Of a stretch of DNA of 64,000 nt, positions 4,186-56,336 are shown one piece after another. The position numbers and the translations under genes are program-made. The stretch is from the NCBI GenBank assembly GCA_002118135.1, contig BDIU01000160.1, positions 124,001-188,000 on the forward strand, written 5' to 3'. Origin of the DNA: Trebouxia sp. TZW2008 (lineage: Eukaryota > Chlorophyta > Trebouxiophyceae > Trebouxiales > Trebouxiaceae). The first letter of the stretch is position 1; each line of letters starts with the position of its first letter. Below the pieces are notes generated by a model. It made no database searches. It was not told where the DNA came from and saw only the letters and a program-made list of their open reading frames with translations.

Positions 4186-7100
4186 ATGACCGTTTCAGCT
4201 GTCGGTGCCCTTTGTCTGGTGATTTGCGCGGCTGTAGTCAATGCACAGACTGTGCTGGACTGGGACGGTCTGACCGACCAGAAGAACCTACAGCATGGTG
4301 ATGTAAGTAGCTGCTGTGCCTTCGCCTAAACTGCTTTCACTCAGCCTTCAAAGTCATAATCATGCAAGCTCTGCATCAGGCTTAGACGAGCTTCAACAAA
4401 ACACACATCACAACTGCATGGCTGAATGTGTCTTTTGCTCCTGCAGGGCACTTCCTATGGTGCTGGGCAAGACAATGCTGGCACTTGCAGTTATGGTACC
4501 AACATGGCCAACACAAATGGCTTGCCATGGAGCAGTGGTCTCACAATGACCATCGCCATGAATGATGATCAGTTTGGCAACTCGGTGGCATGTGGGATGT
4601 GCGTCACTTTCCAGGGCACAGGCACTGGCATTGGCACTGAGCCAATCCCAGGTGGGTCTCAACTGTTGTGCTGATGATTTTGAATGCAATATGTGTTGTA
4701 TAGTCCTTGCTGCTTGACTTTTTGGCAGAATGATGTGAAAAGGATGAGCTGCCCAATACCTGAGCTTAGTATGAGCAAGCAAGTCTCTGCACATCAATCA
4801 TCGCATGACGTGCCTGGCAAATCAGCTTGTGCGGTGCAGTGGCTCCAAGCTTGTGTAAAACCCACATGCTTTTGAGACCTGTCACCGCATCATGTCCATG
4901 GCACACTGTAGCACATAGTAATAGTCACCAAGTGTCCATGTTCTCCTTGGCATTCATTCTGTGTAACAAGACATACTTTGCATTTGCCTGCAATGAAGGC
5001 ACTGAGCAGCGTGTCAGTGCATGAACCTATGTCAAATCCTGTGCAGCCCAATACCTTCAAGCTCTGTGATGATGTATCTTAAATCTGGATTTTGACAAAT
5101 ATAAGCAGCAACTGTAAACGTGACACCTGATCCTGCATGTGCAGGAGGGCCAGTATGGCAAACAGCCCTGGTGACTAACAGATGCCCTGAGTGTGCACAT
5201 GGCTCCATTGACCAAGCCATCAATGGCAATGGCAGATGGCAGGTGCAGTGGTATGCCACACCCTGCCCTGTGGGCAACAGCAACCTCTTCTTCAGCATCA
5301 CTGTCATCGACCAGTACTGGTTCAGCCTGGTCGTCTCCAACACCTTGTAAGTCACTCAAGCCTCTGGCTTTGCGCTTTGTGCATCTTTGTCTGGTGGTCT
5401 ATTGCGTTTGTAAGTCACTTGGAACCGCTTATGAGCACCATTGTCTGGTGACTTCCAACACCTTGTCATAATTCCCTCCGATTCTCCATGCCTGCGTCTG
5501 CTCAAATGCATCTGGCTGCATGTCTTTTGAGAAGTACACTGCCATGTGGGCAATAGCAGCCTCTTCTACGTCATCACCGTCATTGACCAGTACCTGTTCA
5601 GATTGGTGGTGTCCAACGCCTTGTAACTTACTCAATGGTTGCACAATGCTTGCATGCTTGCTCCAGCTCGATTGCATCTGGTTGCGTTTGTTTTGAGAAG
5701 CACCAGCTTGGCTTGCTGTTGAGGTGTGTCTGACACATACTTGTCACAGACCTTCACGATGCCTATTGTGCAGCAGCAACTGCATAGCATATACATTGTA
5801 GTGAAACTCATCTTGTCACAACCACCTCATCAAGTTCCAACGCAGACGCAGCAGCAGCCAATCTGCTTGTGCAACTGCTTGACGTACTGCATGGTATGCT
5901 TTACGTACTGTGTTCTGTCTGCTTGTGCTTGTTTGCTGTTGCAGCTGCGCTCTTGCTGTAATGCATGACCAAGTGATAGCATGTTCCCATTGCAAGATCG
6001 TTCTGAGCTGTAACTGCTCCGTTTGTCTATGCAGTGTGCCCATCACTTTGGTGGAGTACCAAATCAACGGAGTCTGGTGGGCAGCAGCTCGCAGTGTGAA
6101 CAACCAGTGGCCATACCACCGTGAGGTTGGCAACTTTGGCTGGCCCCTACCCATCAGAGTCACCTCTGTGTCGGGTGAAGTTTTGACAGACATAGTACCA
6201 TCTAGCGCAGGTCAGCATCACCTTGTTCAGCTTTGCTGCTTTGTTGAATGACTGCCTTACTGTGATGGCTCCCAACTGTCACTGCACCCTGCATCTGCAG
6301 CTTGCATTCTTTCTGTCTATTTTGACAAGTTTGCGTCGTCATTGCACAGAGCAAGCTTTCATGCCTCATCTTCAGGATGAGCGTTTGACTGAAGTGCCTG
6401 AGAAGTTGCATCAGCTGATTGTCTCAAATTATGCCATCAAGCATGATGTCATGTGGCTTTGCGGCTTCTTGCTCTCACGATTTGATGTCACCTTGTTGGC
6501 ACCTTATCACACTGCAACATATTGCAATCTTGCATGCATGTCATTTTGCTTGTTCCTTTGACTTTGCCTTTCACTCTTTGTCCCAAGCCATGCTGCTAGA
6601 TTGCATTTCCTGCCCTGCCATATGTCTGCTTTCCCCTTTGACTGATGCATGCTGCAGCGACTGTATCTGCTGACCTGTGGCATACATACTAGAAGCCCTG
6701 CAGCTGCTGCACATACCCTGGCTGACCTGTGATGTGTACTGTTCAGGTGGCTGGGGCACCAAGCAGTTCACAAACACTGGCATAGACCCAGCTTTCCAGA
6801 GCTTGAGCACCTTCATGGACACCACCGGCCCCTTGGGCTCCTCAGTCATAGCAGGCGCATCAGAGTCATCCTCTGGCAACCAGGTCTCAGGTTCAACTGC
6901 CATCACAACAAACAACGCCTTGACGACAGTCAGTGCCAGTGCTAGCAGCTCTAGCAGCAGCACGCCAGCCCCTGTTGTGGTGTCACCCCCCGTGACCCCC
7001 CCTGTGGTGATTCCAGTCGTCCCAATCGTCCCAGTCAGCCCCCCAGTTGCGACTAACAACGTAGTCACTGAGGGTGTGGTTGTCACTTCACCTGTCGTGA

Positions 7101-9085: not shown

Positions 9086-12000
9086 TCAACTATGTGCCTT
9101 TGCCAGCTTGAGCTTGACACGCTCGTAGATGAACCACTGAATTGCAGCACCAGGAGCTATGGTCAGGGTGCGTGCCAGCAAACCCTGCGTAAAACCTCTG
9201 ATCCCTGCATAAGCCACACACCATCTTTGCACATTTGACAGGCCTTTGGCATGAGTTACAAGAGACAGAGTTGATGACTGATCAACCAGTCAAACAACAG
9301 TTCTTCACTGGCTTGGGGACCTGACAGAGGCCCGCATACAGATGGTGTGGTACAAGCGTGTAGCATGCTGTGATGTGTTGCACCTGAACCATTGAGACCT
9401 GACAGTTTGCACAGCAGTCTAGTCGACCTCTCAAGCAACATGATAAATCCGTACTGCCAGGGATTACTGTGCTTTTCCTTAGCAGCAGTGTATAGAAAAA
9501 ATCTCAGAAACTGAGTTCCAGTGCCGCCATATGCATCGTGTGCTGCTGTAAGCAATCTACTGCAAAATCGATGTCGTATCAACTTAACAGAGCCGTAGAC
9601 TAGATGCGTTAAGTGCAGGCCGGCTGCAACGTCCATTGACAACCGTTCTGAGGCTCTCAGCCTGAATTTGCTGCTTGTTTGCTTGTGTGCAACTCCACTT
9701 CCAAAGCTGGTAACAGCAATCCATGAAATGAGAGCAGCAGTGGCTGGAATCCCAAGTGAAAACAAATGACAGACTTGCCTGGAGGCAGCTGATTGCACCT
9801 GATAAAACCTAGTTGCTGGGTTTTAAAGTCTGCCTAGCAAATGTTCTAAGGAATGAACGAATGAACAGGTGAAACAACTGAGTGTGCAGGAGAACACACA
9901 AGTATTCCATACCTTGTGCTGCCCATAGACTCTTGGCGACGTCAACAGCCTTCAGGCCATGTGCCCCGTTCCTGGCAGATAGCACCTGCGAATTCATGCT
10001 TGCAGGTATTGAAAGCAGAAGCAAGCAGGTTGGAAATGACAATTGCCTGGCATACAACTGTGAGCAGTGCTCAGATGATTTCACTGAGTGACTGAGTTGC
10101 TGATATACTAGACAAGTGTCTGGCTTAGCTCCAATACAGCCAGTCATTCTGTCGTAGCAGCAGGAATACCTGGAGGCAACTTCAGATGACATCTGCAAAG
10201 TGGGTGCACAAGGCAGTCAAGAGCAGACAGACAAGCAAACAAGCGAGACAGTGGTCGAGTGGGTGATACAGCAGCAGGTGTACCTGGAGGCGGGTTTTCA
10301 CAACATCTGCAGGGTGGGTGCACCAAGCCGCCAGGGCTGCACTACCCGCTGAGCTTGCAGCAATGCCCCACCCTGGCAACTGCTCTGGTCCTTCCAACTG
10401 CACAGACATTGACCAATGAACAATTCAGAAGATCAATGGCACATGAACATGATCCTTGGCATCATGTTCACTCACGATGATGTGAGACCATGCCTGCCAC
10501 TCAAAGCAAGCAGGGTCTTGACAACAACATCTGCAGGGTGGATGCACCAGGCAGCTGAGGCTGTGCTGCCAGCTCAGCTTGCAGCAATGCCCCAGCCTGG
10601 CAACTGCTCTGGCCCCTCCAACTGCTTGATGGGTTAGAGAGAGTCATGCCTGCTCACTGCAAGCAAAGGAGATCATGCTCCACAGAAGACAAAATTGGCA
10701 GCCCAAATGCAGCTAGACAACTGTTGAGTTATGTCCTCTGTGCAGCACAAGGTAGAGGCAACCTTGCCTGCAAGCTTTGTGTCAAGGACTGCTTGGACTT
10801 CTCATAGCAGGCAATGTAAATCATGTTCCATGGGAACCAAACTGAGTTGGTGGCCCAGTAGCCCTTCATTAGGCCTGCTAGCCCTTGCTGACGAGTGATG
10901 CTTGTCAAGGCATGGAAAGCGCTGCGGTAGCTGTAAGCTTGCTGCATGAGTGTTTGCACCTGAATTCAACAAGGACGCCATTTGTGGTTGGCAGTTGCTA
11001 GCTAGTGATTCTTGTCAAGGCACGAAAGGCACTGCGGTGAACGAGAGCTTGCTGCATGAGTCCTTGCACTTGGACACAACAAAGATACAATTTGTGTTTG
11101 ATATTTGCTGGGTAGTGATGCTTATCAAGGCGTGAAAAGCGCTGCAGTAATTGTAAGCTTGCTGCACGAGTTCTTGAACCTGAACATAGCAAGGTCACAA
11201 TTTTCATTCGCAAGTCAACTGTGACAATGCAGTTTTTGCTTTGCAGTTGCTGGCCAGTGATGCTTGTCAAGGCATGGAAGGCGGTGCAGCACGTGTAAGC
11301 CCGCTGCATGAGCCCTTGCACCTGACCACAATGAGGACATGCCTTATGCTCTGCATGTCAGCAAGGTCAAGCTGGCTGGAATGACACATGCACTGTGTGT
11401 TGACACATGGACCAAAGTTGGATAAGCATAGGAGACTGAATTTTGAATAGGTGCAGACTACATGGCATGCACACAATAAATGTCTGTTCTGAGGCATGCA
11501 GGCAATCAGGCCACATTTGAGATGCTACAGAATGTAGTCAACACAGGCAAAGCTCTCTCTGAATCTTTCATACTAAGTACAAGACGTTCCACAGCACGCA
11601 TGTTTGAAAATTGTAATGCTGATGACACAGGGGTTCTCAGTGCAGTAGTAGACAGCAGCAGTCAGTTTCGCAGCACAAAGCAGTCATGCAAGGCTGTGCA
11701 AGGCTGTGCATGACTGCTTGGTGTTGCAAGGCTGACCACTGCTGTCTAAGCCTGCCAGACAAGAAAGAAGAAGATGAACACAGGTGAAGGACAGATGCGC
11801 TGACGCCAGATGAAGCAAAGCTGACCGTTTTTATCATGATGCCATGAACAAGCCAGCCTGGCAAGACAATACATTTTTCACACACACCTAGCACATGTGC
11901 TGGATAGCGTACAGTAAGTTGTGCCCATGAGGACACTGGATGTACGCACATCATTGATGTAAGGACAAGGCAATTGGAAACTAATGACTGCAACCTGTCT

Positions 12001-13417: not shown

Positions 13418-16400
13418 ATGCAGAGCACTTGTCTGAATCTGCCCGCCTGCAGACATCTGTCAGTGAGACCGTGCTCTCGCGGCGCACCTTTCAGACCCGC
13501 GCCGCTGACTAGAGCAGCAGTGCACCTGAAGTCCCATGCTTTGTCCTGCCACAAGGCACGACAGCACAGCCACTTCAGCAGGCATCAACTCAGGGGACAT
13601 CAGCCTAGGCACACAACAACTTGCTCTGCGACTAGCACTGCCATAGGCATTGGGATATTCTTCACACCAAGTATAGTGGCAGTCATCTATGCGTATTTCA
13701 AAGGCAAAGGGAACGTCAAGGACGGCCTCAGCAGACTGCTGACAGAAGTCACACAAGGCTACTTCCAGCCCAATGTTGGAGGTGAAAGCATACCTGTCGC
13801 ACAAGGGGAGCTTTCAGATCTTGCGGGTGATGAGCCTCTGTTCAAAGCTCTTTACCAATGGTCAGTCATGCACTACTCTTGCATGCGTATGCATGCATGC
13901 CCTGAGTCAATCATGCTTTGTCCTTGCAACCATACGCAGTCATGCCCTGGGTCAGTCAAGCATCGCCCTTGCATGCAAATGCAGTCATGCCCTGACTCAG
14001 TCAAGCACTATTCTTGCGCGAACATGCACGTATGCCCTGGGTCAGTCATGCACACATTTGGTCAAGGTCATGTCTGCAGATAAGCTTGCAGTCGCCTTGC
14101 ACAAGTGCTTTGCACATGTTGATGCATCAATACAGGACCTTGCAGGGTGGCAGGCTGTTAGTGCAAATGCAGGTTTCTTGATAGTGGAGGCGTGTACAAG
14201 CTAGCATTTGGGCCCAAGGCATTCATTGTTGTCTCAGACCCTGTAGTGGTCAGGCACCTCCTCAAGGTAATTCTTGCTGCTTGGTTGAGCAATGCTGCAC
14301 ATGCTAGCCCCACAGATGCTATGCATTGCTGGTGGTCCATCTCCACGCATGCATCACATATGTACACATGTACGCATGTACACATACATGAGACGATGCA
14401 AGATGCATCATTTTGGCTAAATTTGCACGGCATTTCTTCACTAGCACTGCATGCAATCAGTCTGAAAGTCTGCCATTGGCACTTACATCAGCAGTCCCAT
14501 TCTGGTTCTACTGCCATGCAAGCACATGCTGTTCCAATCAGATTATGCCCTGACAGTTTTGATCATGCGCCGCCCATGCAAACTTGGCCAGCGAGCCGCC
14601 CTGTGCCTGCTGCATGACTAAGGTGCTTGGCTGCTGCAATATGCATTCAGCTCCTGCAAGAAGGAGTTGGAGCCCATGCAGATATAGATTTGACTTGTAT
14701 TATGCATGCTGGATGACCAGGGATTTTGATTGCAGAAATCAGCTTTCAACATGACATGATGACATCTGTTTGCAGGAGAACGCATTCAACTACGACAAGG
14801 GTGTGCTGGCAGAGATTCTGGAGCCCATCATGGGTAAAGGGCTAATCCCAGCCGACCTAGAGACCTGGAAACCTAGGCGGCGCGCCATAGTCCCAGCTTT
14901 TCACAAGGCCTACCTGGAAGCCATGGTCAACATGTTTGGCCGCTGCACGGAAGTGGCAGTGCAAAAGCTGGACGCCATTGCTGCATCAGGCAAGGTACAG
15001 AATGCCGCCTGGCTCTTGTGTTGTTTGTCATACAATTTGCAGAGTGTTCTGGTAAGTGCGGCAGCTGGCATCGTTTCAGCCATGAGTAAGTTTGGCATTT
15101 GTCAGCATTCTACCCATGAGTGACTCTGCTGCGGAACAGCAATGGTCAGCATGTGTGGCCGCTGCACAGAAGTAGCAGTGCAGAAGCTGGACGCCATTGC
15201 CGCATCAGGCAAGGTACAGACTGCTTCCTGGCATGTGTGCTGCTTGCTGTACAGTGTGCAGGTGCTAACACAACACTATAGCCAAAGGGATCTCAAGTTT
15301 GATGACATGATAGTATGCAACAGGACGCCATTGCTGCATCAGGCGCGGCACAGAGTGCTTCCTGGCATGTGTAGTGACTATGCTTACAGCATGTTGCCTG
15401 AAGTGGCCAAGCTGACAGCAGGTTGCCTGTGTTTTGCTTACTGCATGTTGCGTGTGATTGTTATGCTGATGCAATGTCGCCAACAGTAGCTATGCTCATG
15501 GCATGTTGCCTGTGATCGTCATGTCTTCAGGATGTTGCCTGTGACTGTCATGCCTACAGCAGGTTGTCATTGACTGTAGGAGACAGACATGGAGGCTGAG
15601 TTTCTGAGCTTTGGCATGCATAGAACTGGTTTGGGGCTTACAGCATGTTGCCTGCACTGCTGTGCTTACAGCAAGATGCCTGCAGTTGTCATGCTTTCAG
15701 CATATTGTTACTGCTCACAGGAGACAGACATGGAGGCTGAGTTCCTGAGTCTTGGCATGGACATCATTGGTCTGGGTGTCTTCAACTATGACTTCAGGTC
15801 TCTCACAACTGAGTCTCCTGTCATCAAGGTAAAGCACAACCCAATACGATAACACTCTCGACACTTGTAGCCATGTGCTAGGTGCCTGTAGCGCAACTCT
15901 TGTCTTGCAAATTTGTGCATGGCAAACAGCAAGTTGTGCAAGCCAGACATGCAATGAGAACATTTCACAGGACAGAGTCTCACTGCACACCTGACCTGCA
16001 TGCACATCATTTGTCATTTTTGCTTGTGCAAGACAGCATGAGATGCTGTGCAGCTGCATCAAGTTGCAAATGCATTGCTCAGCCCTGTATAAGGTATCAG
16101 AAGCAACATAGTGCATTGTATCATCAGCGGACTGCAAGCTTCCAGTCAAAAAGTGCAGAATTGCGTATGCAACAGACATCTAGCTGATGGATTGCCAGCC
16201 CACACTTGATCGGGTTTTCAAACAAAATGCCCACATTTTGTTGGCTACAGCAAAATTCTTACAGCTCGATAGGTTTTCTGGCAAATTGCAGGCAGTGTAT
16301 GGTGTGCTGAAAGAGGCAGAGCATAGGTCAACCTTCTACATACCCTACTGGAATTTGCCATTTGCCAAGAACCTGGTCCCGCGTCAGCGCAAATTCTACG

Positions 16401-19400
16401 CTGATCTGGCTGTGATCAATGACTGCTTGGATGGGCTCATAGCTCAAGCCAAGAACACACGTCAAACAGATGATGCAGAGGCTCTGCAGGCCAGAGACTA
16501 TTCCAAGGTACGCTGTTTTCTTGATGTAACAACTGCAAAAAGCTGTCTCTACATTGAGGTGTTGGCCATGATCAATGATTGCTTGGATGGGCTGATAGCT
16601 CAAGCCAAAAACACATGTCAGACAGACGATGCAGAGGCTCTGCAGGTCAGATTTACTCTCAGGCGTCTTGCAAACAGTCTGTGTGTCACATCATATAGTG
16701 AAGTCAACGCCTTCTTTCAAGTTTGTAAAGCAGGCATACAGTCCTGATGCCTGTGAGATGTTGTCCTGTCTTGCAGGAAGCTCATACATTTAGCATGGTT
16801 CCTAAAACTATGCTTGTCCCTTGCTGCTTCACAACTCTTGCATCATGTTGTTGTCACTGCATCATGTGTTTTCCTGCTTCCTGATTGTGCCCAAGATGAC
16901 TCTGCAGGTGAAAGATCCCAGCTTGCTGCGCTTCATGGTGGACCTACGGGACGCTGACATTGATGACAAGCAGCTGAGGGATGATCTGATGACCATGTTG
17001 ATTGCTGGGCATGAAACCACAGCTGCGGTGCTGACCTGGACCCTGTTTCAGCTCATGCAAGCGCCTGAGGCCCTAGCAAAGGCAGTGCAGGAAATCGACC
17101 AAGTTGTTGGAGACGCCAAGCCAGGTCAGCACAGCATTATGTAATAATCAGTAAGCACAGGGCTTATATGTCAACGAGCAGTAGTGTTGACTGATCGTGA
17201 GTTTTTGTTTTGCCAATGCTAATCTGGACCGTGTCAGCTCATGCAAGCGCCTGAAGCTCTAGCAAAGGCAGTGTAAAATGTTGACCAAGTTGTTGGAAAC
17301 CCAAGCCATGCCAGCACATTGTTTATGTGCTGATCAGTCATGAGGTGTAGCAACCGTTAGTAAGGGATCCTTGCTTGATCATTGCTGACCTGGACCCAGC
17401 TCACGCAAACGCCTGGGACCCCAGCAAAGGCAGTGCAGAAACTCAGAAAGTTGTTGGAGACACCATGCCAGGTCAGCACACTACGTATGTGACAGTGTGT
17501 ATGTGATGATCAGTAATGGTTACTAAGGAAATTTGCTTACTCAGTGCTGATGCAAGCTCCATTTTGGGTCATGTCAATTCTTGAAGCTCTAGCCAAAACA
17601 GTGCAGGAAATTGACCAACTTGTTGAAGACACCATGCCAGGTCAGCACAGGGTCTGCGTCATGATGAGCAAGATACCTTTGCTTAGTCAGTGCTGGTGTG
17701 GACCCTGTTACAGTAGACTCTCTTTGTAAGGACACTCGGTGTAAGGACAATCTGGATGTAAGCACAACGCCATTGGTAGCCAATCACTGCATTCTGACTG
17801 CACTGGTCCCTCTGAGTAAGGACAATTCGATGTAAGGACAAGTTTCTTGATAACCAAAGCAGTCGTTACAAAGAGAGTTTACTGTACAGCTTGTGCAAGT
17901 CATATTGGCAGAGTCCCTGTGGCTGTGCCTTGAAACTCCAATCCTGATCAGGCAAGCCTGATGGGACCAGACGATCCCCCCCCCCCTCCCCACCATCATG
18001 AAGCGCCCACCATTGTCCATCCTGCTGCAGGACTGCAGCACATTCAGCAGATACCGTATGTACGAGCCATTCTGGCAGAATCCCTGCGGCTGTATCCTCA
18101 GCCCCCTATTCTAATTAGGCGTGCCCTGGGGGATGATACCCTCCCTACGCCTTTAGGGGGGGACCCCAATGGCTACCCCATTGGCAAAGGAGCTGACCTC
18201 TTCATCTCTGTTTGGAACCTTCACAGGCAAGCTGCTGATTACATATAGTATTCATAACAATGATGATAATTATATCAAAAATTATTTGTAATATACACAG
18301 TAAGCACTACGCTTATCATTATTGTGAACAATCATGATTTAGGATTGTTCTAGCACAAAATCCTTGGTGAGTGTGAGATAAGCTGCGCATTGTCTGGCTT
18401 TAGACTGCTTTCTTGAACGTGATCATAAGCTTTAGTGAGACAAGTCGCCTCACTTGTGAGAGGATTCTGACAGCTGCAGCCCAGATCATTTCTTGTCATT
18501 TTGCTGACCTATGCAGCAGACCTTGTATTTGATATCGCACTAAAACTGATTTTGTGTCTGTTTGACAGGTCGCCACACTTGTGGAAGGATCCTGACACTT
18601 TCCGGCCAGAGCGTTTCTCCGAAACCAATAGCAATCCAGGGTTTGAGGGCAGGTGGGCGGGGTACAGGCCTGAAGCCCAGGGCTCTTCCCTGTACCCTAA
18701 TGAGGTGGCTTCAGATTTTGCCTTCATCCCTTTTGGTGGTGGCGCCAGGAAATGCGTTGGGGACCAATTTGCATTGATGGAAGCCACTGTGGCTCTTGCC
18801 ATGCTACTCAGGCAAGACTGTTTGTAGCATGCAATTACATCCTGATCTTCTTAGTGACAGAAGAATTCGTACAAAGGACGTTTAGCGTGTCTTTGTGTTC
18901 TTAAGGTAAGGGGTTAAATTAACAACATCTCATTTGCAGCAAATTTCATCTCGTTTATTACTTGTTGCAAATGAAGCAGTGTCTCAGCATACTGCTGGAA
19001 GCCACTGTGGCGCTTACCATGCTGCTCAGGCAAGACTCGCCAAATCCATTCAATCATTCATTACGTTCTGAACATGTGCTAAACCAGCTCAGCAGGCCCA
19101 GCTAGGTACTGGAGCAATCAACTGTCTGCAACCGGTCACAGCATGCAATGTTGTCCCCGTTTCAGCAGCTGCGCCATTGGCAGCGTCAGTTTGCATTGCT
19201 GGAAGTCACAATAGCGCTTGCCATGCTACTCAGGCAAGACTGTCACAGCATGCAATTACATCCCATTTGCCGCAAACTCCATCTCATTTGTCATGTGTTG
19301 CAAACGAAGCAATGTCTCAGCGTAGTGCTGCAAGTCACAGTGGCTCTTGCCATGCTACTCAGCCAAGACTCCTTGCAGCATGCAATTGCATCTCATTTGC

Positions 19401-32185: not shown

Positions 32186-35100
32186 ATGGTTGCGCAAGCA
32201 TCTTACAAGCGCACCACACCAAGGTGTGTGGTATCCATCGACCCTGCAAAGCACCCTTGGGAGCAAGAAAAGAAATTGCACAACAGATGGCATCCTGACA
32301 TTCCACATGTAAGTTGCTTTTCTTGCAGCGTTCTTGTGCTGCAAACCCTTGCCTGCAACATTTGAAGCCTGATTGCTGTTCCTAACCATCGGCCCACCTG
32401 ACATAGCCATGTTTTGCAAGTCGGCACCTGTGCTTACATGCTGCAGCAGAGTGCAAGGCTGTTTTGCCTATCCTGCAGGTTGACACTGTCAAGGAGGGAG
32501 AGTGCTTCCGTGTTGAGACTCAAGATTGGACAGGTGGCCAGATCAAAGACAATGACTCTGCAGAGGACATGAAGAACATTGATTTGTCACTGGTAAATCT
32601 CACGCTTTCATTGTCTGCAGTGACAGCCATTAACTGTCTGCAGATGCATCATGTCACCGTGTACTGACAGCATGCGTTCATTTGTTGCGCAGCGAGACAG
32701 GTGTATAATGTGACTTCTGGCACAGAGGAAGAAGTGTGCATGCAAACAACCTCTAGCAGCTACAATTCAGTTACAAAAATTTAGCCTCTCATGCTTGATA
32801 TGCTATACCTTGCGCATATCTGATGCACAAGACGTCCATTTGTTCATGAGCTAGACATGTTGACACACAAGCTGCTTGCAGGTGCACAACCTGAGTGGAC
32901 CAATCCGTGTGGAAGATGCTCAAGGCAGACCAGCTCAGCCAGGAGACCTTCTAGTGGTTGAGATTCTGGACCTGGGACCCTTGGAGGGTCATGAGTGGGG
33001 ATTCACAGGAATCTTCGACCGTGAAAATGGAGGCGGCTTCTTGACTGATCACTTTCCAGATGCCTGCAAGGCCATCTGGGACTTTGAGGGCATCTATTGC
33101 TCTTCTCGCCACGTGCCAGGTCAGCATGTGGTCCTGGCTATCTTACATGTTTGAGTCAGAATTTTCTGTAGCAGTCACTATGAGACATAGAGTGGGAATC
33201 AAATGGCACGTGTGGTATCTTGACTGATCATTTTCCAGATGCCTGTAAGGCCGTCTGGCATGTTGGGGGCATCTATTGCTCTTCTCGCCATGTGCCGGGT
33301 CATCATTTTCCCTAGCAGATAGTGCATCTACTGCTCTTTACAGAACATGTTAGATATAATTAGCACATGTCAGCAACAGCAGCGTTCAAAATAAAGAATT
33401 TGCCAATCAAACGTAAAACAGAAAACGCAATACTATGGCCATCAAGAATGCGCCGATCATTTGTGTGTGTCACACTATCTGGCAGATGCTCATGCATGCA
33501 ATCAACGGTCTCAACAGCAAGCATGGAAGTAGTAACAACAGCCGTGTCACAATAGATTTCATTTTCCAGCAAAGATGTTAGGCTGTGTGGCAACTGCAAA
33601 TTTTGACATGATACGTCTGCAGGAGTGAGATTCCCTGGGCTGATTCACCCAGGGCTGATTGGCACAGCCCCCAGCCATGAGCTGCTCAAAATCTGGAATG
33701 ACCGTGAGCGCAAGCTTGTGGAGGACGGTGACAAGGCCATCACTCTGGGAGGTGTCCTAGCAACCCGCCCACTTGGTAAGCTGCTGTCTTGCCTGCATTC
33801 AATGGCCCCTGCTTCCCGTGTGTACTCAGGAACAAGCAGTCTCCTGCAAGGTGAAGGATGGCGGCAAGGCCATCACTCTGGGTGGCGTCCTGGCAACCAG
33901 CCCACTTGGTACGCTCCTGTCTCGCCTGCTTTCAACGGCCAATGCTTCACTTGTGCACTCAGCAGCAGTCAATTTCATGTAAGGTGGAGGACGGTGACAA
34001 GGCCATCACTTTCTGAGGCGTCCTGGCAACCCACCCACTTGATACGCTGCTGTCTTGTCTGCTTTTGATGGTCCCCATGAAAATGCTTCTGTATTTTCAT
34101 ATGCCTTCTAGGTCACCAATCAAGCTAAGCTTTGTGCAGTATGAGCCTTTTCTGAAGCAGTCAAGGCAAAAAAAAGGCTTTTATTTGGAAAAATGACATT
34201 CAAGGCAGAGGCACAAGTGTTCTTGGTGTCGCTGAGTTCTGAGACAACACAACAGGGTTTTGTGCTGTAGCCAACCTGTCAGCTCCTTATGTGTGCAGGG
34301 CGCCCTGCTAGGAACAATGGACAAGAACATTGAGGAGTTGCAGCATGTCTCAAAGTGTGGGGGATTCAATGAGGCATCATTGGGTGTTTTGAAGAATATC
34401 CCAGGACGTCACAGGCAGATCAAGGTGCTTTTGTGCTGCAGCTAATCTGCCAGAACCTAAGGGCACTCTGCTGGGATCAATGGACAAGAACAGTGAGAAG
34501 TTCAAGAAAGCAGCAGCTGAGGCGGTTATGACTGTCCCAGGATTTTTGCAAACCAGTGAGGTTTTTTGCTGCAGCTAACTTACCAGAGCCCAAGGGTGCT
34601 TTGCTGGGATCAATGGACAAGAGCAGTGAGGAGTTCAAAAGGGCAGCAGCCAAGGCAGTTATGACTATCCCAGGAATTTTTAGGCAAAACAGTGGGGTTT
34701 TCTGCTGCAGCTAATCTGCCAGAGCCTAAGGGCGCCCTGCTGGGATCCATGGACAAGAACAGCAAGGAGTTCGAGAAAGCAGCAGCTGAGGCTGTCAGGA
34801 CTATCCCAGGACGCGAGCACGGTGGCAACTGTGACATCAAGAATCTGACCAGGGGATGCAAGGTAATTTTGACATGTTGCCAGCATGGTGTGGCTCTCTC
34901 TGTTGTGTAAGGTTGGGCCACAGACTGCATCAGCCAAGGGCATTGGGAGTTAAGCACGGTAGTGACATCAAGAATCTGACGAGGGGTAACAAGGTAGGTG
35001 GACACGATGCCAATATGGTGTGGACATTTCTGTTGTTGTGTAAGATTGGGTCACAGACTGCATCAGCCAAGGAGGTTGGGATTAAACACAGTAGTGACAT

Positions 35101-38100
35101 ATCAAGAATCTGACCAGGGGGTGCAAGGTAGGTGGACACGACGCCAATGTGGTGTGGATGTTTCTATTGTTGTGTGAGGTTCAATTACAGACTGCATCAA
35201 CCAAGGACATTGGGAGTCAAGCATGGTACCCCAATTGTGACATCAAAAAGTTGACCAGGGGGTTGCAAGGTAGGTGGACACGATGCCAATATGATGTGGA
35301 CATTTCTGTTGTTGTGCGAGGTTCCAGTCACAGACTGCATCAGCCAAGGTCATTGGGAGTCAAGCATGGTAGTCCTGATTGTGACATCAAAAAGTTGACC
35401 AGAGGTTGCAAGGTAGGCTTGAGACCATGTCAGCATGCTATGCTCTGTGCGTGAGAGTGTAGAATGTTCTCTGTTAAGTCAGATCGAACGTCACAGGCCG
35501 CAAATCAAGCCAGGACAGTGGGAATGTATGGTATGGTGTATTGACAAGGGGCAGGTACAGTTTTGGTTGATGCAGCAATGTCAGTATTGTGCCCACCCTG
35601 CCTTTGGGGTCACAAAAGCATTCTACAGTAAACTCTCTTTGTAAGGACACTCAATGTAAGGGCAACCTCAATGTAAGGACAACGCCATTGGTAACCGATA
35701 AATGCATTCCAACTGCAGTGGTCCCTCTGAGTAAGGACAATTCGATGTAAGGACAAATTTCTTGGTAACCAAAGCAGTTGTTACAAAGAGAGATTACTGC
35801 CTTCAAGGCTCCTGTTCATTGCCTGTGCATTCACAACAGCTTAGCCAATTGTACATGCGTTCACAGCAGCTGACCCGATTGCTCATGTATGCTGAAGTTT
35901 GTGTATGTTGATAGGTGTACTTCCCAGTGTTCCTTGAGGGCGCCAACTTGAGCATGGGGGACATGCACTTCAGTCAGGGAGATGGAGAGGTGTCCTGTTG
36001 TCCAGCCAATTCAACATGCGTCCACGGCAGCTGAACTGTGTGTGTGTATTCAATAGGTGTATTTCCCAGTGTTTCTTGAGGGCGCCAACCTGAGCATGGG
36101 GGACATGCACTTCAGCCAGGGAGATGGAGAGGTGTCCTTCTGTGGTGCCATTGAGATGTGTGCTGCCTACCTCACCCTCAAGTAAGCCTCTGCTCACTAC
36201 TGACAGCTGTCTGTTGCCTCACACAGTCTTTGAGCTTAGATTCTAGACCTCAGAGTTGGGATGGTCCGTCTGTGGTGCTACTGAGATGTGTGCTACCTAT
36301 CTCACCCAATCAAGTAAACTTTTGTTCACCCGTGGCAGCTGCATACAGCATCCAAGGGTTTAAGATTCAGACTCAGGGTCAAGAGTGTCCTTCTGTGGTG
36401 CCACTGAAATGTGTGCTGCCTACCTCACCCTCAAGTAGGCTCCATTCCAGTCAGCACAGCTTGCCAAGCGTACAGAGTCTCATGCAGCCTCCAAGTGCAT
36501 AGCACGTAGGCCAAGTTTGAGCATTTGCCTGAGGGCTGTTGGTCAGGGCATTTCCTGATGTCCAAGCAGCAAAGCCTACCCAGCAAGGACCAGCTGCTGC
36601 TGCTCAGGGATGGTCTGATCATCAGTATGCTATGGCAGTCATGCTTCGGAGGCTTCAATGTGGGGGAGATCAGACTAGACAACATCCGGACACCCATCAA
36701 CAGTCCAGCCATCCCATTCATTGTACCCCAAGCAGCGCTTCAGCCTATCTGAGGACTGTCGGTCAACATCTTGTAGGGGAGCAAGCCAAGTAGAGTTGCC
36801 ACAGTTGCATGTCGCAGCTGCAGCACATGCTGTCCTAGCTTGTGTGCCAGCTCGCACCACACATGGCTGGCCTGAATAGTCAGCATGTGTGTCACCTCAA
36901 GACGCACTTCTTATGCACGAGCCAGGTGCTATGCTTGTGTGCATGCACATTGTTCCTCCTGACAGGCTTGGCTGGTCTGCTGGATCACAAAGTCAGCTAT
37001 GAATTGCTGTTGACACCTGCCACGTCTGAGCATGCGTTGCAGTATTGATCTGAAAAGCAGACAACCTCAAAACCTGCTACCATATTGCACATTCAAGGTA
37101 CACCCAAAGTGAGATATCTCGTGCAATCTTTGCACAGGTGCTCAATCATGAGGGGTGGCATGGAACAGTACTTGACGCCTATGGGTCCCACCAAACTGCA
37201 CGTGAACCCTATTTTTGAGATCAGCCCCTTGGAGCCCCACTTTGCAGAGTGGCTGGTCTTTGAGGGTCTCAGTGTTGATGAGCACGGCCGCCAACATTTC
37301 TTGGATGCGTCAGTTGCCTTCAAGCGGGCTGTGCTGAACTGCATTCACTACCTGTCCAAGTTTGGCTACACTAAGGAACAGGTAAGGCAACACACAATGC
37401 CACTTTTTGGATGCGTCAATTGCCTTAAAGCGGGCTGTGCTGAGCTGCGTTTACTACTTGCCCAAGTTTGGCTACACTAAGGAACAGGCAAGTCAGCACT
37501 TCTTGGATGCGTCACTTGCCTTCAAGTGGGCTGTGCTGAATTGCATTCACTACCTGTCCAAGTGTGGCTACAATAAGGAACAGGTAAGGCAACACATCCC
37601 GCCACTTTTTGGATGCGTCAATTGCCTTCAAGCGTGCTGTGCTGGACTGCGTTGCTACTTGTCCAAGTTTGGCTACACTAAGGAACAGGCAAGTCAGCAC
37701 TTCTTGGATGCGTCACTTGCCTTCAAGCGGGCTGTGCTGAACTGCATTCACTACCTGTCCAAGTTTGGCTACACTAAGGAACAAGTAAGGCAACACGCTC
37801 TGCCACTTCTTGGGTGCATCTGTTGCCTTGAAGCGGGCTGTGCTGAACTGCGTTTACTACTTGTCCAAGTTTGGCTACACTAAGTAACAGGCAAGTCAGC
37901 ACTTCTTGGATGCGTCACTTGCCTTCAAGCGGGCTGTGCTGAACTGCATTCACTACCTGTTCAAGTTTGGCTACACTAAGGAACAAGTAAGGCAACACGC
38001 TCTGCCACTTCTTGGGTGCATCTGTTGCCTTGAAGCGTGCTGCGCTGAGCTGCATTCACTACCCATCGAAGTTTGACTTCACCAAGGAATCGGCAAGTCA

Positions 38101-39132
38101 ACACTTCCTGACTGCATTTGTTGCCTTCAAATGTGCTGTGCTGAACTGCATTCACTACCTGTCCAAGTTTGGCTACAATAAGAAACAGGCACGTCATCAG
38201 GCCCTTACGTGTTTTGCGTTGCTGAGCCGAAAGCCCGTTCACAGCATCTTGACTTATGGCAAACAGCAGCTGCACTGTCCCATTGTATTGCATCTCTCAA
38301 GCTGTTATCTAAATCGGAATCTTTGGTACACTGCCTTTGCTGCAGTGCTTTCTTGTAGTGATAGGCCAGTATACACAGCAACCAGCCTACATGCTGCGTG
38401 TATAACTTGTGCTGGTTGCGATGCAGATCTATTTGCTGCTGTCATGCTGTCCATGTGAGGGACGCGTTTCTGGCATTGTGGATGCACCCAACGCCTGCTG
38501 TACGCTTGCCATTCCTACTGCCATCTTTGACCAGGTACACTGCCCATGAAAGTACGCTTTGTTGGCTTTGCTGCGCGGACACTGTGTGGCATGCATGACA
38601 CTGGCAGAGCCTCCATTGTGTACCTAGCTGGCCCTGCTGAACCTGCCTAGCACATGTTTAGAATGGTAACATGAGTAAAACGGAAGCGCCTGTGCCCAGC
38701 TGTTAGCATGTACCTGCCAGCTCCAAATGCAGATATACGTGAATGCCTTGCGACAGGGCGCCTCTGCTTGCAGTTTGTGTCAAGCATACAAATGAGTTGT
38801 CGCAAGACTCATTCAATGCTCAAACATAGCTGAACAGGGCATGGTCCATGACTTGTGTGTTCATCAGCGTGTTGAGCAAGGCAGCTCTAGCATAATCATA
38901 AGCTAGTGCACAATTGGTGACTTTGAGCATTGTTGCATCAAATCAGGCAGCTTGAGTGAGGCTTAGTCCTGCTTGTGTCTGAAGTTTGAGTTGCCATACT
39001 CTGCAGGACATTCGCCCCTGCAAGGACGGACCCCCAGTGGGTCCCAGACTGATCAACCGGGGGGACTTGGCAAAGGCCAAGTATGACGGCAGCCTACCCC
39101 TGACCAAACCCACATGCAACGGCTGTTGTTGA
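32186..39132 (+). CDS. fmd: Formamidase / acetamidase (FmdA/AmdA family)
   Basis: Nine exons: 32186-32308, 32479-32592, 32882-33119, 33623-33775, 34711-34862, 36057-36181, 37138-37381, 38427-38534 and 39007-39132, giving 460 aa. The first exon is found only by reading phase (WEQEKKLHNRWHPDIP), and its ATG is the nearest in frame. Family hallmarks are DWTGGQIKDNDSAED, the LSGPIRVEDA strand, GGNCDIKNLTRG, FSQGDGEV and the late SGIVDAPNACCTLAIPTAIF. The enzyme hydrolyses formamide, or short aliphatic amides, to the acid plus ammonia, so a nitrogen-scavenging role in the cytosol is likely. Length fits the family (about 400-460). Introns hold the densest exon-copy arrays in the window and one MITE (intron 5). 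Which copies of exons 5-7 are used was chosen by phase and completeness. Confidence 0.92.
33215..33305 (+). repeat. Copy of the 3' end of formamidase exon 3
   Basis: It repeats 'gcatctattgctcttctcgc' and the preceding bases of exon 3. The donor context has become 'ccgggtcatc', so the donor is still possible but the frame is damaged. Confidence 0.75.
33838..34055 (+). repeat. Two copies of the 3' end of formamidase exon 4
   Basis: Bases 33848-33912 and 33980-34045 each repeat the coding end of exon 4 ('acaaggccatcactctggg...cccacttg') with following intron bases. The second has a TGA within the coding part. Confidence 0.8.
34262..34682 (+). repeat. Three copies of the 5' part of formamidase exon 5
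   Basis: Copies at about 34268-34412, 34438-34546 and 34576-34682 precede the complete exon at 34711. Each begins near a TGCAG or TGTAG acceptor and encodes ...GxLLGSMDKxxEE-like peptides. They diverge after 'actatcccagga'. Confidence 0.85.
34925..35425 (+). repeat. Four tandem copies of the 3' end of formamidase exon 5
   Basis: Units of about 125 bp each contain 'gacatcaagaatctgac' or its variant, end 'gcaaggtagg(t)', and are followed by the same intron words. Several retain a strong AAG|GTAGGT donor. Confidence 0.85.
35624..35799. mobile_element. Pogo-like MITE (copy 2), in formamidase intron 5
   Basis: A 176-base element is closely related to the one at 17709-17886. It has the same TIR (TACAGTAAACTCTCTTTGTA at the left, its near-complement at the right) and the same internal 'aaggacaattcgatgtaagg' word. 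It is non-coding and in the same orientation as the host gene. Confidence 0.8.
35905..36000 (+). repeat. Copy of the 5' part of formamidase exon 6
   Basis: Bases 35915-35996 are nearly identical to 36057-36140, including the ATAG acceptor. The frame then ends at a TGA. Confidence 0.85.
36250..36440 (+). repeat. Two copies of the 3' end of formamidase exon 6
   Basis: Copies at about 36262-36318 and 36385-36437 repeat 'gagatgtgtgctgcctacct' and the 'caagta' donor region, with substitutions. Confidence 0.8.
37400..38200 (+). repeat. Array of about eight copies of the 3' end of formamidase exon 7
   Basis: About 100-bp units each carry the last 80 or so coding bases of exon 7 ('gtccaagtttggctacacta' core) plus a donor. 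Two unit types alternate: one ends 'gaacaRgtaaggcaacac' (GT donor), the other 'RaacaggcaagtcagcaC' (GC donor). Many units stay open in the original frame. Confidence 0.9.
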
Positions 39133-40161: not shown

Positions 40162-43100
40162 ATGGATGGGGTGTTGGGCAAGTTGAAAAATCTTGATGCG
40201 TACCCCAAAGTCAATGAAGATTTTTTCACCAGAACCTTCTCGGGAGGCGTGATCACTGTTGTCAGCAGCATAGTCATGCTGTGCCTCTTTCTGTCTGAGC
40301 TAGGTGAGCTTGCGTTGTATGGTCAATCGCACTCGCCAGGCCATTCATCATTGCATGCCAATCTTGAATGCTATGCCAGCTTATGCACCAATACAGCAAT
40401 CTACATCTCATTGAACCTACAGGCCTGTGGTTGAGGATGAACACCATCAGCGAGCTATCAGTGGACACTTCAAGGGGAGAAATGATGGACATTAATGTAT
40501 GTACCAAACGCTCTATAGTTGCTTCCAAAGCTAGCGCCAGCATTGTGCTGTGTGCTCTATGCTGCATTTAGACATGTCTGTTGTTGCTTGCTGCAACTTG
40601 ACAATACAATATATGGCGTGTTGTGTGTGTGTACGGACTTTCTGTTGCTTGTGGCCGTTTGACGATACATCTCACAAGTCGCCATGGGCATGCACAAATC
40701 TTCCTGTTGCTTGCTGCAACTTGACAATACATTCCACAAGTCACCATGTGCATGGACAGATCTTTCTGTTGCTTGCTGCAGTTTGACATCACCTTTCACA
40801 AGCTACCATGCGCATGGACATCGCTAGACGCCATGGATATCAGTGGAGAGATGCATCTGGACGTAGTGAGTATCACTTTCAGTCAGTCATGCTCTTGCAC
40901 CCTGTGCATCATTCAGCTTTCTGCGAGCTGCATCTGTTGCGCCGCCAAAACTGTGCCAGATTGGAAGCTGTATCATTTGTGCATTCGTATAATTTGCCAG
41001 ACTGCTGCATTTGCAGCATTTGGCTGTCTGTGAGCTGTATCTTTTGCGCAATCATAATCTTTATTAGACTGCTGCAGACTGCATTGTATACAGCTTTCCG
41101 CTAGCTATGTCTGTCGTGTAGTCACAAACTTTGCTGGACATCTGCAGGATCACAAAGTATACAAATGTCCCAAGCCATGTCTCTTGTGTAGGCATGGAAT
41201 GTGCCAATATGCTATCAGGACTACAATGTGTACACTGCTTATGCATAGCATAATTTTGCAAGGTATGTTTGTTGTGCAGTCATACAGTGTGCCAGATTGC
41301 TGCAGGATCACGATGTGTACAAAAAGCGACTGCGAGAAGATGGCACGCCAATTGACGATGGCATCAAGCACACGATCGGTCCAGAGAACATTGATCTCAT
41401 GTCCAAGGACAACAAGGATGAGAATGGGACTGTATGTGGCAGCTGCTATGGCGCTCAGACTCCATCACAGCAATGTTGTAACTCCTGTGATGAGGTATGT
41501 GCCTGCTCTTGGCTGACCTGTCATTGCTGACCCTGGCGACAGGGACCTGTTGGCAAGCAGTCACTGCCCTCTGCACTTGCTCAGCAGGGTGTTGCGCCTG
41601 CCTGGCTTTGCCTAGCATGATAGCCATACAGCAGTGCTGTAACTCCTGTGTTGTGGTATCTGCCTGCCACGCGTCATGCTTGCCAGGTTTTGCCCACACA
41701 CATTATAGCTGAGGCTGGCGCTTGGAAGCTCATGGACCTGTTGGCAAGCAGTGGATGCCATTTGTGAGCAGAACTGCTTAATCTGCCTGAGTGTCCCCAG
41801 CATGCATGAAAGCAAATGTATGCATGAGTCAAGGCAATTTGAGCATTAGCTATGTCCTGAATGTCAGCTGTCCTGATGCAACATGCATAGCGAACTGGCA
41901 TGCCTAGCCAGGCTGCCTGTACATCTGTCAAGCACTCAGCCTCAAGATTCTCTGCACAGTTCAGGGCTGTCAAGCAGCTAGTCAGCATATATCAAAAGCC
42001 GCTAGTCTTGCACACACTGTAAATCGTGTTGCACAGCCTGCATCTGGACCATACAAAGCTCATCCAGGGTTGTGGCCACAGTCAGTATGGTGCATGAGCA
42101 AAGCGCGATTCAAGCTGCAGTAAGGGTCATGATTGAGCTTGCACAGGTGAGAAGTGCACACGGCAAGAAATCCTCACAGCCCATGTTGCACAAGTGAGAA
42201 GTGTATGTGGCACAAAAGCCTTGCAAATGAGCTTGCACAGGTCAGAAGCGCGTTTTGTAGGAATTTCCGCTACAGCTAGGTTCTTGCAGGTGAGAAGTGC
42301 ATATCGCAAGAAGGGGTGGGCGTTCACGGACCCTCAGGGGATTGAGCAGTGCGCCCAGGAGGGGTTCAGCAAGGCTCTGCAGGAGCAGGCAGGCGAGGGC
42401 TGCCACATGTGGGGGGCCATCTCCATCAACAAGGTTTGCACCCCTCATGCTTGCAGCTTTCAACAACATCAACAATGTCTGCATCCCTCATGCTTGCAGC
42501 TTTTGACAGCAGCGCCGCTTGGTCATTTCCAGTAGGGAGTTGTGTGTCAACCAGGTCTGCATCCCCCATGCTTCCCAGCGCTTGAGGCAGCAGGCGGGGG
42601 AGGGCTGCCACTTGTGGGGGGCCATCTCCGTCAATAAGGTTTGCACCCCTCGTGCTTCCAGCTCCTACGGCAACACTAAAGCTCGTCCTTCCAAGACAGA
42701 AGTTTTCTCCTGCCATGAAGAACTACTTTGTGAGAGACTTGCCAAGGAACGCAGTGACTTGAGAAAGTTGACAAAGTAGGTGCATGTTGGTACGAGCCAG
42801 ACATTCAGCAAGGCTGGTGCATTCATCCCTTTGCAGTACAATGTATTTATGGTAAGGCAGGTAGACTTCAGACCAAATTGCAGTCCACACATCAGAGGCG
42901 AGTTCCATCTTTGTGCAGAACCTATTCTGCACAAATGCTGCTGTACAGAACTTAGCATAGTGACCTTCGGCTGATCTTTGCTTTGGAAGTGAGCTTCAAG
43001 CTGTTGTTGCAAGCAGGCATGCTGCTTCAAGCTCTTGTGCAGAAGGGCTTGAGGCGCCATACCTGTTTGCAAAGCAGCCCAAAGCTCTCACACAAATTTG

Positions 43101-45625
43101 AGGAAATGCAGAGATAACGGAAAGCAGGGCTGGTCAGAGATGATCGTGGCCATTTGGTGGAAGCAAAGCCCCGCAAACGTTCTCACAGTCATGGGGTTTG
43201 ATCTGTGCCCTCTAGCAGGTGCTTGGAGCTGATTCAGTCTCCCAAATATGAAAGCACAGACTGCACATTTGACACGCCTGCATGCTGCTGACTTGCTTGT
43301 AAGCAATTGACCTGAACTCATTGACTTTGTGAGTTTGGAATATGCATCTCAGATGCGCTGATGAGTGGTGCTGACATGCTTGTAAGCAAAAAGAGTACAC
43401 CGAGAACTGAACACTGCGTCATTGCTGTTGCTAGGTGGCTGGAAATGTACACTTTGCCCCTGGCAAGTCATTCCAGCAGGGCAACATGCATGTGCATGAT
43501 CTGGTGCCCTTCCCTGACAAGAACTTTGACCTGAGCCATACCATCACGAAACTGACCTTTGGCAAGGGGTACCCAGGGCAGCAGAACCCCCTTGACGGGG
43601 TCTTCATCAATCAGACCACCTCCACTGCGTCACAATCTGCCACTGGAATGTGGCAATATTTCCTCAAGGTGATTCCAGCTGTCCCTGTCAGCCAAAGCTG
43701 CAACAAGAGCAATGTTTCGCACACAAGGTGCAGCTGTCTTGTTTGTGATTGGCAAGGGGTACTTTGAGCAACAGAACCCTCTTGATGGGGTCTTCACTAA
43801 ATAGACCACCTCCACTGCATCACAAGCTGCCACTGGAATGTGGCAGTGCTTCCTCAAGGTAATGTCAGCTGCCCATCTCAGTAAAGCTGCATTGAGAGCA
43901 TTGTGTTTTACAAAGTGAAAAAAGCGGAGCTGTCCCAGTTGTGGTTGGCAAGGGTCCCCCAGGACAGCAGAAGCACCTTGATGGGGTCTTCATCAATCAG
44001 ACCACCTCCACTGCGTCACAAGCTGCCATTTGAATGTTTCTCAAGGTGAAATCAGCTGTCCATGTCAGCAAAAGCTGCAATTGGAAATGGAAACAGAGCA
44101 TTCATGAAGGAATGCTCACAGCATAGCATCCTGGCTGAGCCTGCTCCAGAGTTGAGCGTGGCTGCAGTGTGGCGTAGAAGTGCAGCTTCACAGATGTCCA
44201 TGTCTGCAGAGAGAGCTGACTGAAGTGTAAAAGCACAACACTGCAGCTATTGACATGTGTGATTATAGCTCGCATTGTTGATATTGAGGTTCTGTTCTGT
44301 ATCTGCTGTCATGCAACAGTCTTGTATGCCTCGTGTGCGGAAGTACGTGTGATGGTGCATGCAACTCACTTCCTCTGCCTGTGTTGTACAATTGGGCCCC
44401 TATGTTGTGCTATTGTCACTCTGTGTTGTGCTGTTGGGCCTCTGTCTCGCATTTTGTCACTGAGCTGTCAATGAAGTGTTGCGCAAAGTGCCTCTGGCCA
44501 TGTCTGCAGGTGGTGCCCACAATGTATAGCGATGTACGAAATAAGACCATCAATAGTAATCAGTATTCAGTCACAGAGCATTTCAAGCGGGCTGACATAC
44601 AGCAGGGGCAGAACATGCCTGGCGTCTTCTTCTTCTATGATCTCTCCCCAATCAAGGTGATTTGCAACTGCAGGCCTTGCAACAGTGTAGTTTGGGCGTT
44701 TTGCATGCACATTGGCTGCCTAGTTGTTTAGGTTTCAGGGTTCATTGACTGTGCACATGCCATCAGCCTGCTGGTCGCACAATGTGCATTGTGCGCTTGT
44801 CTGATCTGGAAATGCTGTGCTTGCTGGCACCACAGCAACAGTGGGTATGCTTACATCGTGCGTGCACAGTAAAACGTGCTCTGCAACACTCATACATTAG
44901 CAGATACGTGACAAGTGAGACACTCAAGTGTATGCGAGTCAAAGAGTAGCCCACTTTGTCAGCAACTGGAGACATCATGTCAGCATCTCTGCACATTGCT
45001 GCAATGTTACAAGCATCTCTATGCCTATGGTGGTGTGACTCTCCTCAGCTGTGCTGCCACATTGTGACATAGACTCCTGTCTGTCATGTTCTGCAGGTTC
45101 AGTATCGTGAAGAGTACAAGTCCTTCACGCACTTCATCACAAGCGTCTGTGCCATTGTTGGTGGCGTCTTCACTGTGTCAGGCCTAATAGACTCCTTCAT
45201 CTATCACGGACAAAAGGTATGCAATGCAATCAGTGAATCACCATGTGTAACTTTCAATCATTCAGTATGCCATATGATACGCAATACCATGTATTTGAGA
45301 ATATGAATCGCTGAGCTGCAGTGCAAATTGTGAAATCAGCATGCTGGCAATACTACATGGCATGCAACACGCAAGTGTTTGAGAATTGGCAATCACTGAA
45401 GACGAGAGTGTGGTGACTCACTGGATGTAACCAGTGACACAGCGTCAAGCTCCAGACATTTGGACTGCATGTGCTCTTTGCATTACAATTCACACACACA
45501 TGCATGACAGAGCATGCTTTGCGTTACAAAAGCCGAGCTTGTATGCTGGGATCACCTGACTGCCTGTTCAATGCTTTCTCATGCAGGCAATCAAGAAGAA
45601 GGTTGACCTTGGGAAGCAAATATAG
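40162..45625 (+). CDS. ERGIC3: ER-Golgi cargo receptor, ERGIC3/Erv46 family
   Basis: Nine exons: 40162-40303, 40423-40496, 40782-40865, 41306-41494, 42290-42433, 43435-43668, 44510-44656, 45097-45216 and 45587-45625, giving 390 aa against about 383 in human ERGIC3. Membrane segments lie near residues 25-48 and 350-372, with a large lumenal domain between. Family marks are LDAYPKVNEDF at the N-terminus, LDAMDISGEMHLDV, the CGSCYGA...CCNSC cysteine cluster, FPDKNFDLSHTI and PGVFFFYDLSPIKV. The short basic tail (AIKKKVDLGKQI) faces the cytosol. With its partner Erv41 it cycles in COPII/COPI vesicles and retrieves or exports cargo. All junctions keep phase. Introns 2-6 contain exon-end copies. 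Confidence 0.95.
40570..40780 (+). repeat. Three copies of the 5' start of ERGIC3 exon 3
   Basis: Units of about 65 bp ('ttgcttgctgcaacttgac...') lead up to the real acceptor at 40781. The upstream copies have CTGCAA, or lack it, where the real one has CTGCAG, so their acceptors are dead. Confidence 0.85.
41060..41300 (+). repeat. Copies of the acceptor and start of ERGIC3 exon 4
   Basis: Versions of 'ctgcaggatcacgatgtgta' recur near 41080, 41150 and 41215 before the true exon start at 41306. Confidence 0.7.
41615..41665 (+). repeat. Copy of the 3' end of ERGIC3 exon 4
   Basis: 'acagcagtgctgtaactcct' plus a 'ggtat' donor repeats the end of exon 4 (41467-41500). Confidence 0.7.
42130..42265 (+). 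repeat. Three copies of the acceptor and start of ERGIC3 exon 5
   Basis: 'gcttgcacaggtgagaagtg'-type words at 42138, 42187 and 42231 precede the real exon start at 42290. Confidence 0.75.
42435..42665 (+). repeat. Copies of the 3' end of ERGIC3 exon 5
   Basis: The best copy, 42580-42650, repeats 'gagggctgccac..gtggggggccatctcc' through the AAG|GTTTGC donor. Two shorter donor-region copies lie at 42470-42500 and 42545-42580. Confidence 0.8.
43740..44050 (+). repeat. Two copies of the 3' end of ERGIC3 exon 6
   Basis: Copies at about 43750-43862 and 43948-44048 repeat the last 110 coding bases and donor of exon 6, with TGA/TAG or deletions inside. Confidence 0.85.
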
Positions 45626-54153: not shown

Positions 54154-55072
<919 letters not shown>

Positions 55073-56287: not shown

Positions 56288-56336
56288 CATTGACACCTTG
56301 TCAAGTTGAGCAATTGTATTGCTGTTGTGGCAGGAC

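Follow-up and report, generated by a model that had tools for sequence, protein, structure and literature searches.

Introns of the green alga Trebouxia sp. TZW2008 contain many diverged copies that combine the end of the adjacent exon with its splice site. These copies are probably short tandem duplications that have been filtered by selection and are kept visible by the constrained exon from which they came. In the window, a 64,000-nucleotide stretch (positions 124,001-188,000) of contig BDIU01000160.1 (assembly GCA_002118135.1), copies lie in the intron adjoining 25 of 104 junctions, with 49 copies in genes A to G, that is, in seven of the 10 genes modelled; two of the 49 rest on a BLAST pair only and one is a whole-exon copy. 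An earlier note on this DNA reported more than 40 copies in seven genes and called the pattern a genome-wide habit. The count agrees, and a sample of 21 further loci (193 kb of the same genome) supports the wider statement: 15 of the 21 loci contain exon-end copies, and window and loci together have them at 68 of 404 junctions (29 donors and 39 acceptors, one acceptor case being a whole exon). Traces at about one-sixth of the junctions examined therefore make intron growth by duplication measurable within one genome.

The assembly comprises 68.5 Mb in 527 contigs, and window GC content is 47-51% per 4-kb block, in line with published Trebouxia genomes such as A48, for which PMC12712428 gives 69.1 Mb and 49.68% GC. 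Window gene models were set by hand, and those of the sampled loci come from a two-strand HMM for which the window genes served as training set; seven copy-like exons in four loci, HMM genes shorter than 300 bp and HMM exons shorter than 20 bp were left out. Together the models contain 202 introns. Hand assembly on sequence anchors gave genes A, C, F, G, and I, all of which translate to uninterrupted proteins. Models of B, D, E, K, and the partial gene P followed later, which brings the window total to 10. The K model reads through cleanly. In B, D, E, and P the anchor joins were interrupted by stops, owing to shifted frames or wrongly placed anchors; models of D and E were taken from the HMM, and B and P (the latter an HMM prediction) were used as exon coordinates only. 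Pfam matches were obtained for formamidase (F), cytochrome P450 (C), ERGIC (G), short-chain dehydrogenase (D), UBC (I) and, from hand-joined reading frames, mitochondrial carrier (B); gene E has a sub-threshold alpha/beta-hydrolase match, and genes A and K have no Pfam match. Gene A is presumably expansin-like. GC-AG introns occur in genes B, C, and K (4 of 52 modelled window donors are GC). The arrays are as follows, in window coordinates.

1068..1309, plus strand: partial gene P, end of the coding sequence and stop codon copied into the 3' flank.
5260..5635, plus strand: gene A (presumably expansin-like), donor 5346 and one donor-type copy (core 5563-5626).
10300..10625, minus strand: gene B (mitochondrial carrier), acceptor 10397 and one acceptor-type copy (core 10566-10625).
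10885..11338, minus strand: gene B, acceptor 10959 and three acceptor-type copies (cores 11011-11072, 11120-11183, and 11262-11325).
14919..15372, plus strand: gene C (cytochrome P450), donor 14994 and two donor-type copies.
15382..15776, plus strand: gene C, acceptor 15720 and an acceptor-type copy (15578-15635).
16407..16651, plus strand: gene C, donor 16507 and one copy (16604-16651), the match stopping 12 bp before the junction.
17029..17650, plus strand: gene C, donor 17124 and three donor-type copies.
18439..18618, plus strand: gene C, acceptor 18568 and one copy (18440-18493) with AA at the junction.
18765..19405, plus strand: gene C, GC donor 18811 and three donor-type copies.
19781..19958, plus strand: gene C, end of the coding sequence up to the stop codon copied into the 3' flank, the unit spanning the stop.
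22028..22183, minus strand: gene D (short-chain dehydrogenase), donor 22154 and one copy, from a BLAST pair only.
22701..23068, minus strand: gene D, acceptor 22770 and three acceptor-type copies.
26019..26723, minus strand: gene E (alpha/beta-hydrolase, sub-threshold), donor 26372 and acceptor 26536 with one copy each.
27784..28128, minus strand: gene E, whole-exon copy (acceptor, exon, and donor), the true exon being picked by eye.
33039..33306, plus strand: gene F (formamidase), donor 33119 and one copy.
33718..34075, plus strand: gene F, donor 33775 and two copies.
34234..34811, plus strand: gene F, acceptor 34710 and three acceptor-type copies.
34826..35446, plus strand: gene F, donor 34862 and four copies with conflicting exon and intron relationships.
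35843..36138, plus strand: gene F, acceptor 36056 and one copy (35911-35973).
36132..36440, plus strand: gene F, donor 36181 and two copies.
37292..38205, plus strand: gene F, donor 37381 and eight donor-type copies in a 202-bp two-unit pattern.
40582..40820, plus strand: gene G (ERGIC3-like), acceptor 40781 and 62-bp acceptor-type units, from a BLAST pair only, the nearest copy having AA.
41462..41667, plus strand: gene G, donor 41494 and one copy.
42384..42663, plus strand: gene G, donor 42433 and one long copy, with shorter ones seen by eye only.
43559..44080, plus strand: gene G, donor 43668 and two copies.

In gene C, a further tandem array at 13860-14052 extends from a donor almost without exon sequence and was counted as intron-only. 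The pattern is patchy from gene to gene. No exon-end copies occur in genes I (UBC) and K (54-60 kb). Self-comparison of the window (pairs less than 3 kb apart, E<=1e-3) gave 73 same-strand versus 6 inverted pairs, and all 73 sit below 44.1 kb; no local direct BLAST repeat was found at that threshold in 44100-64000, although UBC and K have introns there, and TRF reported merely a few short-period arrays in the last 20 kb. The 21 loci, summed, have 178 direct versus 10 inverted local repeats (E<=1e-4, less than 1.5 kb apart).

The formamidase model (gene F) is 87% identical to its counterpart in Trebouxia sp. A1-2 over the aligned part and 75-76% identical to those of Coccomyxa, Myrmecia, and Pleodorina. 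Its source exons are clearly genuine because the junctions are gap-free in alignment to the last three, out of four relatives. The annotated A1-2 protein is missing a stretch and carries six additional residues, beginning with AS, exactly at the junction of the eight-copy array (37381), and this insertion looks as if a GC donor had been missed at the counterpart of that site. The nearest copy in the array has a GC donor (GCAAGT) and the source donor is GTAAGG.

Alignments bear out the two classes first described, with donor-type copies carrying the exon end and donor and acceptor-type copies the acceptor and exon start. Tandem whole-exon duplication also leaves a coding copy in the adjoining intron, but here the unit includes both splice sites in only 1 of 68 cases; whole-exon duplication was rejected on this count, and the units straddle a junction as the earlier note maintained. 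In locus L010, a 52-bp exon (6135/6187) is flanked on either side by copies and could be a second whole-exon case. The exon part of a copy has a median length of 76 bp (middle half 50-98, maximum 152), and copy-to-copy distance is 62-294 bp in all but one of the 68 cases, with a median of about 154 bp. Intron sequence, described earlier as a regular component of the unit, is present to a variable extent: among 67 cases the match runs more than 30 bp into the intron in 37% but 6 bp or less in 31%. Introns with copies have a median length of 713 bp (n=64) versus 395.5 bp for those without (n=138), and about 20% of intron bases lie inside the span of local-repeat arrays (spacers included), in keeping with the proposed intron growth.

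A tandem duplication should leave the stretch between exon and copy resembling the stretch beyond the copy. Such resemblance was found in 41 of 67 cases (17 of 24 in the window) by an anchored comparison and, after three cases were dropped, in 36 of 64 at p<0.05 (26 at p<0.01) by an indel-tolerant local comparison, which detected no homology between spacer and DNA beyond the copy in the other 28. Within the window, the local comparison detected homology in 17 of 23 cases, some shifted by 20-115 bp; most window cases are therefore probably tandem duplications, several of which were broken by later indels. Tandem duplication is thus the best supported of the causes originally suggested, and R-loop, RNA-templated or template-switch causes may contribute but are not needed for the pattern.

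The splice junction itself, which the earlier note suggested as a possible site of origin, is not necessary. In 2 of 10 window genes (C and partial P), the end of the coding sequence has been copied into the 3' flank. The match in C includes the first base of the stop codon, and that in P continues for two bases past the stop. The two cases score 91 and 63 versus control maxima of 27 and 28, and in both the spacer resembles the sequence on the far side of the copy (p=0.014 for the case scoring 91 and p=0.002 for that scoring 63), so the duplicated units spanned the stop. A splice site is therefore not required. No such copy was found upstream of seven start codons.

These observations fit a simple sequence of events. 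Duplications lying wholly within a coding exon would damage the protein and be lost. Those over a coding/non-coding edge (donor, acceptor or stop codon) would be harmless as long as the exon-proximal edge is used, because the second copy falls in the intron or 3' flank. That copy could then decay freely while selection holds the exon member, and because selection does so, an exon-copy pair would remain recognisable for longer than one in which both members drift freely and soon have their intron portions broken up by substitutions and large indels. Repeated rounds would give arrays of up to eight copies and longer introns. We infer that splicing uses the first donor and the last acceptor, that slippage or unequal exchange produces the duplications, and that selection acts as the filter.

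Whether survivorship suffices was assessed against a null model. Geometry alone would place about half of tolerated duplications (781 of 1500 in simulation) across a junction. Once ages are fitted to the identities seen and large-indel rates are assumed, the null predicts 68 straddling versus 48 intron-only duplications, or about 1.4:1. Exon-anchored and intron-only arrays stand at 24:3 in the window (P=0.0006 at a ratio of 1.4; 0.008 at 2.0) and at 43:11 in the loci (P=0.0008 and 0.027, respectively). These ratios omit 23 arrays in unannotated locus DNA (70.3 kb outside models; 10 of them in L028), and if none of the 23 touched an exon the overall ratio would change from 67:14 to 67:37. Under this model, the window excess is about three- to six-fold, whereas that in the loci hinges on the unannotated arrays; the junction-versus-elsewhere comparison suggested at the outset thus indicates an excess at junctions in the window and is less sure in the loci. 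A more sensitive scan (>=30 bits) recovered 91 direct exon-to-noncoding repeats (3 inverted) versus 19 intron-only repeats (2 inverted), 31 direct and no inverted repeats in unannotated parts of the loci, and one direct repeat in the 11.2 kb of the window treated as intergenic, from which stretches that probably hold unmodelled genes had been removed. It revealed no hidden pool of weak intron-only repeats.

A neutral simulation with small indels only predicts more intron homology than observed. Large indels with fitted ages give better extension lengths but do not improve the ratio: modelled fractions, from short to long extension into the intron, are 0.28/0.20/0.51 or 0.43/0.20/0.37 under two assumed indel rates, and observed fractions are 0.31/0.31/0.37 overall and 0.12/0.33/0.54 in the window. 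A fixed age of T=0.2 takes the model to 4.98:1, but identity (79.4) and extension fractions then fit worse. With unannotated arrays left out, intron-only arrays are about three-fold scarcer than modelled, a shortage that is not fully explained. Faster decay of native intron sequence, a burst of older duplications, self-renewal by exchange or an exon-end preference may each contribute to the excess.

The last of these is the strongest competitor, although we consider it unlikely: duplication itself could be biased towards exon ends by transcription, splicing, chromatin or base composition, which would make the enrichment mutational and not only a matter of survivorship. Both array ratios, the often short intron side of the copies and the near absence of repeats from intergenic window DNA favour such a bias. 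Stop-codon edges are affected without any splice site, though, the spacers of most window cases are tandem-homologous, and the ratios are judged against a null with assumed indel rates and, in the loci, HMM gene models, with the 23 unannotated arrays omitted. On a bolder and doubtful version of this idea, coding/non-coding edges (junctions and stops) would seed copies at several times the rate at which intron or intergenic DNA duplicates, and introns would grow outward from exons; if so, the spliceosome would have to pick the true site by position alone among up to eight near-copies.

A second alternative, which we rate as very improbable, is that the exon re-seeds its intronic copies through unequal exchange or gene conversion, so that exon-anchored arrays outlive others. 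It would account for the lack of any gradient of age with rank: mean identity to the source for copies ranked first to sixth from the exon is 0.855, 0.852, 0.825, 0.892, 0.810, and 0.860 (n=24, 24, 12, 4, 3, and 3), a flat series at odds with the decay with distance claimed earlier. It would also suit the 202-bp two-unit pattern at donor 37381 and the array at donor 34862, in which copies 3-4 match at 0.97 in the exon part and 0.63 in the intron part, as against 0.81 and 0.97 for copies 1-3. Mismatches in the exon part are clustered when gaps are counted, but this first sign of gene conversion vanished once gap columns, their neighbours, and the outer five columns were removed (53 pairs, p=0.225 and 0.201), and gene conversion was rejected.

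The selection-filtered duplications favoured here would leave copies free to decay, and the copies indeed behave as unconstrained, near-neutral debris. The identity series by rank, the copy-to-copy mismatches and the single-copy changes come from a stricter cut-off, with 107 copies from 59 junctions (8 of 67 junctions gave none). The exon part is 84.5% identical to its source, whereas the intron part is near the random level (0.738 versus 0.716). Mismatch between source and copy by codon position is 0.139/0.116/0.220, and between copies it is 0.205/0.154/0.228; between coding sequences that are both under constraint, third positions would be expected to diverge much more strongly than the others. 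Changes confined to a single copy number 94, 62, and 106 over the three codon positions (p=0.002), an unevenness that leaves a mild codon-position bias. Median site scores are 4.4 for donors and 4.2 for acceptors in copies versus 6.2 and 6.0 in sources. An indel or stop is present in 27 of 61 copies and 34 are free of both; the unit length is a multiple of three in 18 of 67 cases, and use of the copy's site keeps the frame intact in 5 of 61. The alternative exons once envisaged were rejected on these last two counts. Copies that function as alternative or decoy exon ends under selection are extremely unlikely: the GT/GC dinucleotide kept in 27 of 29 donor copies, the copies free of indels and stops and the mildly uneven single-copy changes speak for them, but AG is kept in only 29 of 39 acceptor copies, and copy-copy differences, unit lengths, and frame all speak against them.

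Decoys close to a real exon end share its intron, and such arrays therefore provide a natural test of splice-site choice; that the proteins are intact implies use of the exon-proximal site. They are also a warning for gene annotators, in that the HMM gene finder took several copies as exons.

Other repeats occur in the window. One dispersed repeat, about 160-175 bp long and 68-89% identical from place to place (17709-17884, 35624-35799, 11930-12083 and, inverted, 19407-19568), sits in several introns and is perhaps a small mobile element. A second short family, 75-82% identical, is present in both orientations (21261-21317, 11846-11902, 23457-23515, 26758-26818, and 29765-29848). A broken reverse-transcriptase-like coding stretch at 52400-53900 appears LINE-like by eye, and a 100-base inverted repeat at 11649-11748 is 78% identical to its own complement. 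No match came from scans for tRNAs or, at the gathering threshold, for Rfam families.

Introner elements are near-identical and dispersed in many genes. That reading was rejected, as was any dispersed element: a 141-bp exon queried genome-wide matched, among the matches listed, itself and at least eight copies in its own intron only, and none of the eight far same-strand pairs in the window overlaps a modelled exon. Tandem duplications within genes, some across splice sites, have reportedly been described in one study. Among the matches listed in a literature search, no title or abstract opening mentions genome-wide exon-end copies in Trebouxia introns. A single junction-crossing tandem duplication has already been published in potato, where one event over an intron-exon boundary created an additional spliced intron and inserted a piece of exon, and the same gene also has an 83-bp tandem duplication within an intron (PMC4974935). 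As in potato, the Trebouxia units can span an acceptor and inherit splicing signals from the parent junction; unlike in potato, junctions with copies are numerous, the copies lie inside existing introns, and the models contain no new intron. Tandem duplication is a genuine route of intron gain according to a review (PMC3443670), and the AGGT tandem genomic duplication model outlined there shares with our case a tandem duplication that interacts with splice sites. In that outline an exonic segment is duplicated and an intron is created, whereas in Trebouxia the duplicated element is a junction that already exists, and the intron merely grows. The density and build-up of many decayed copies within existing introns are what set Trebouxia apart.
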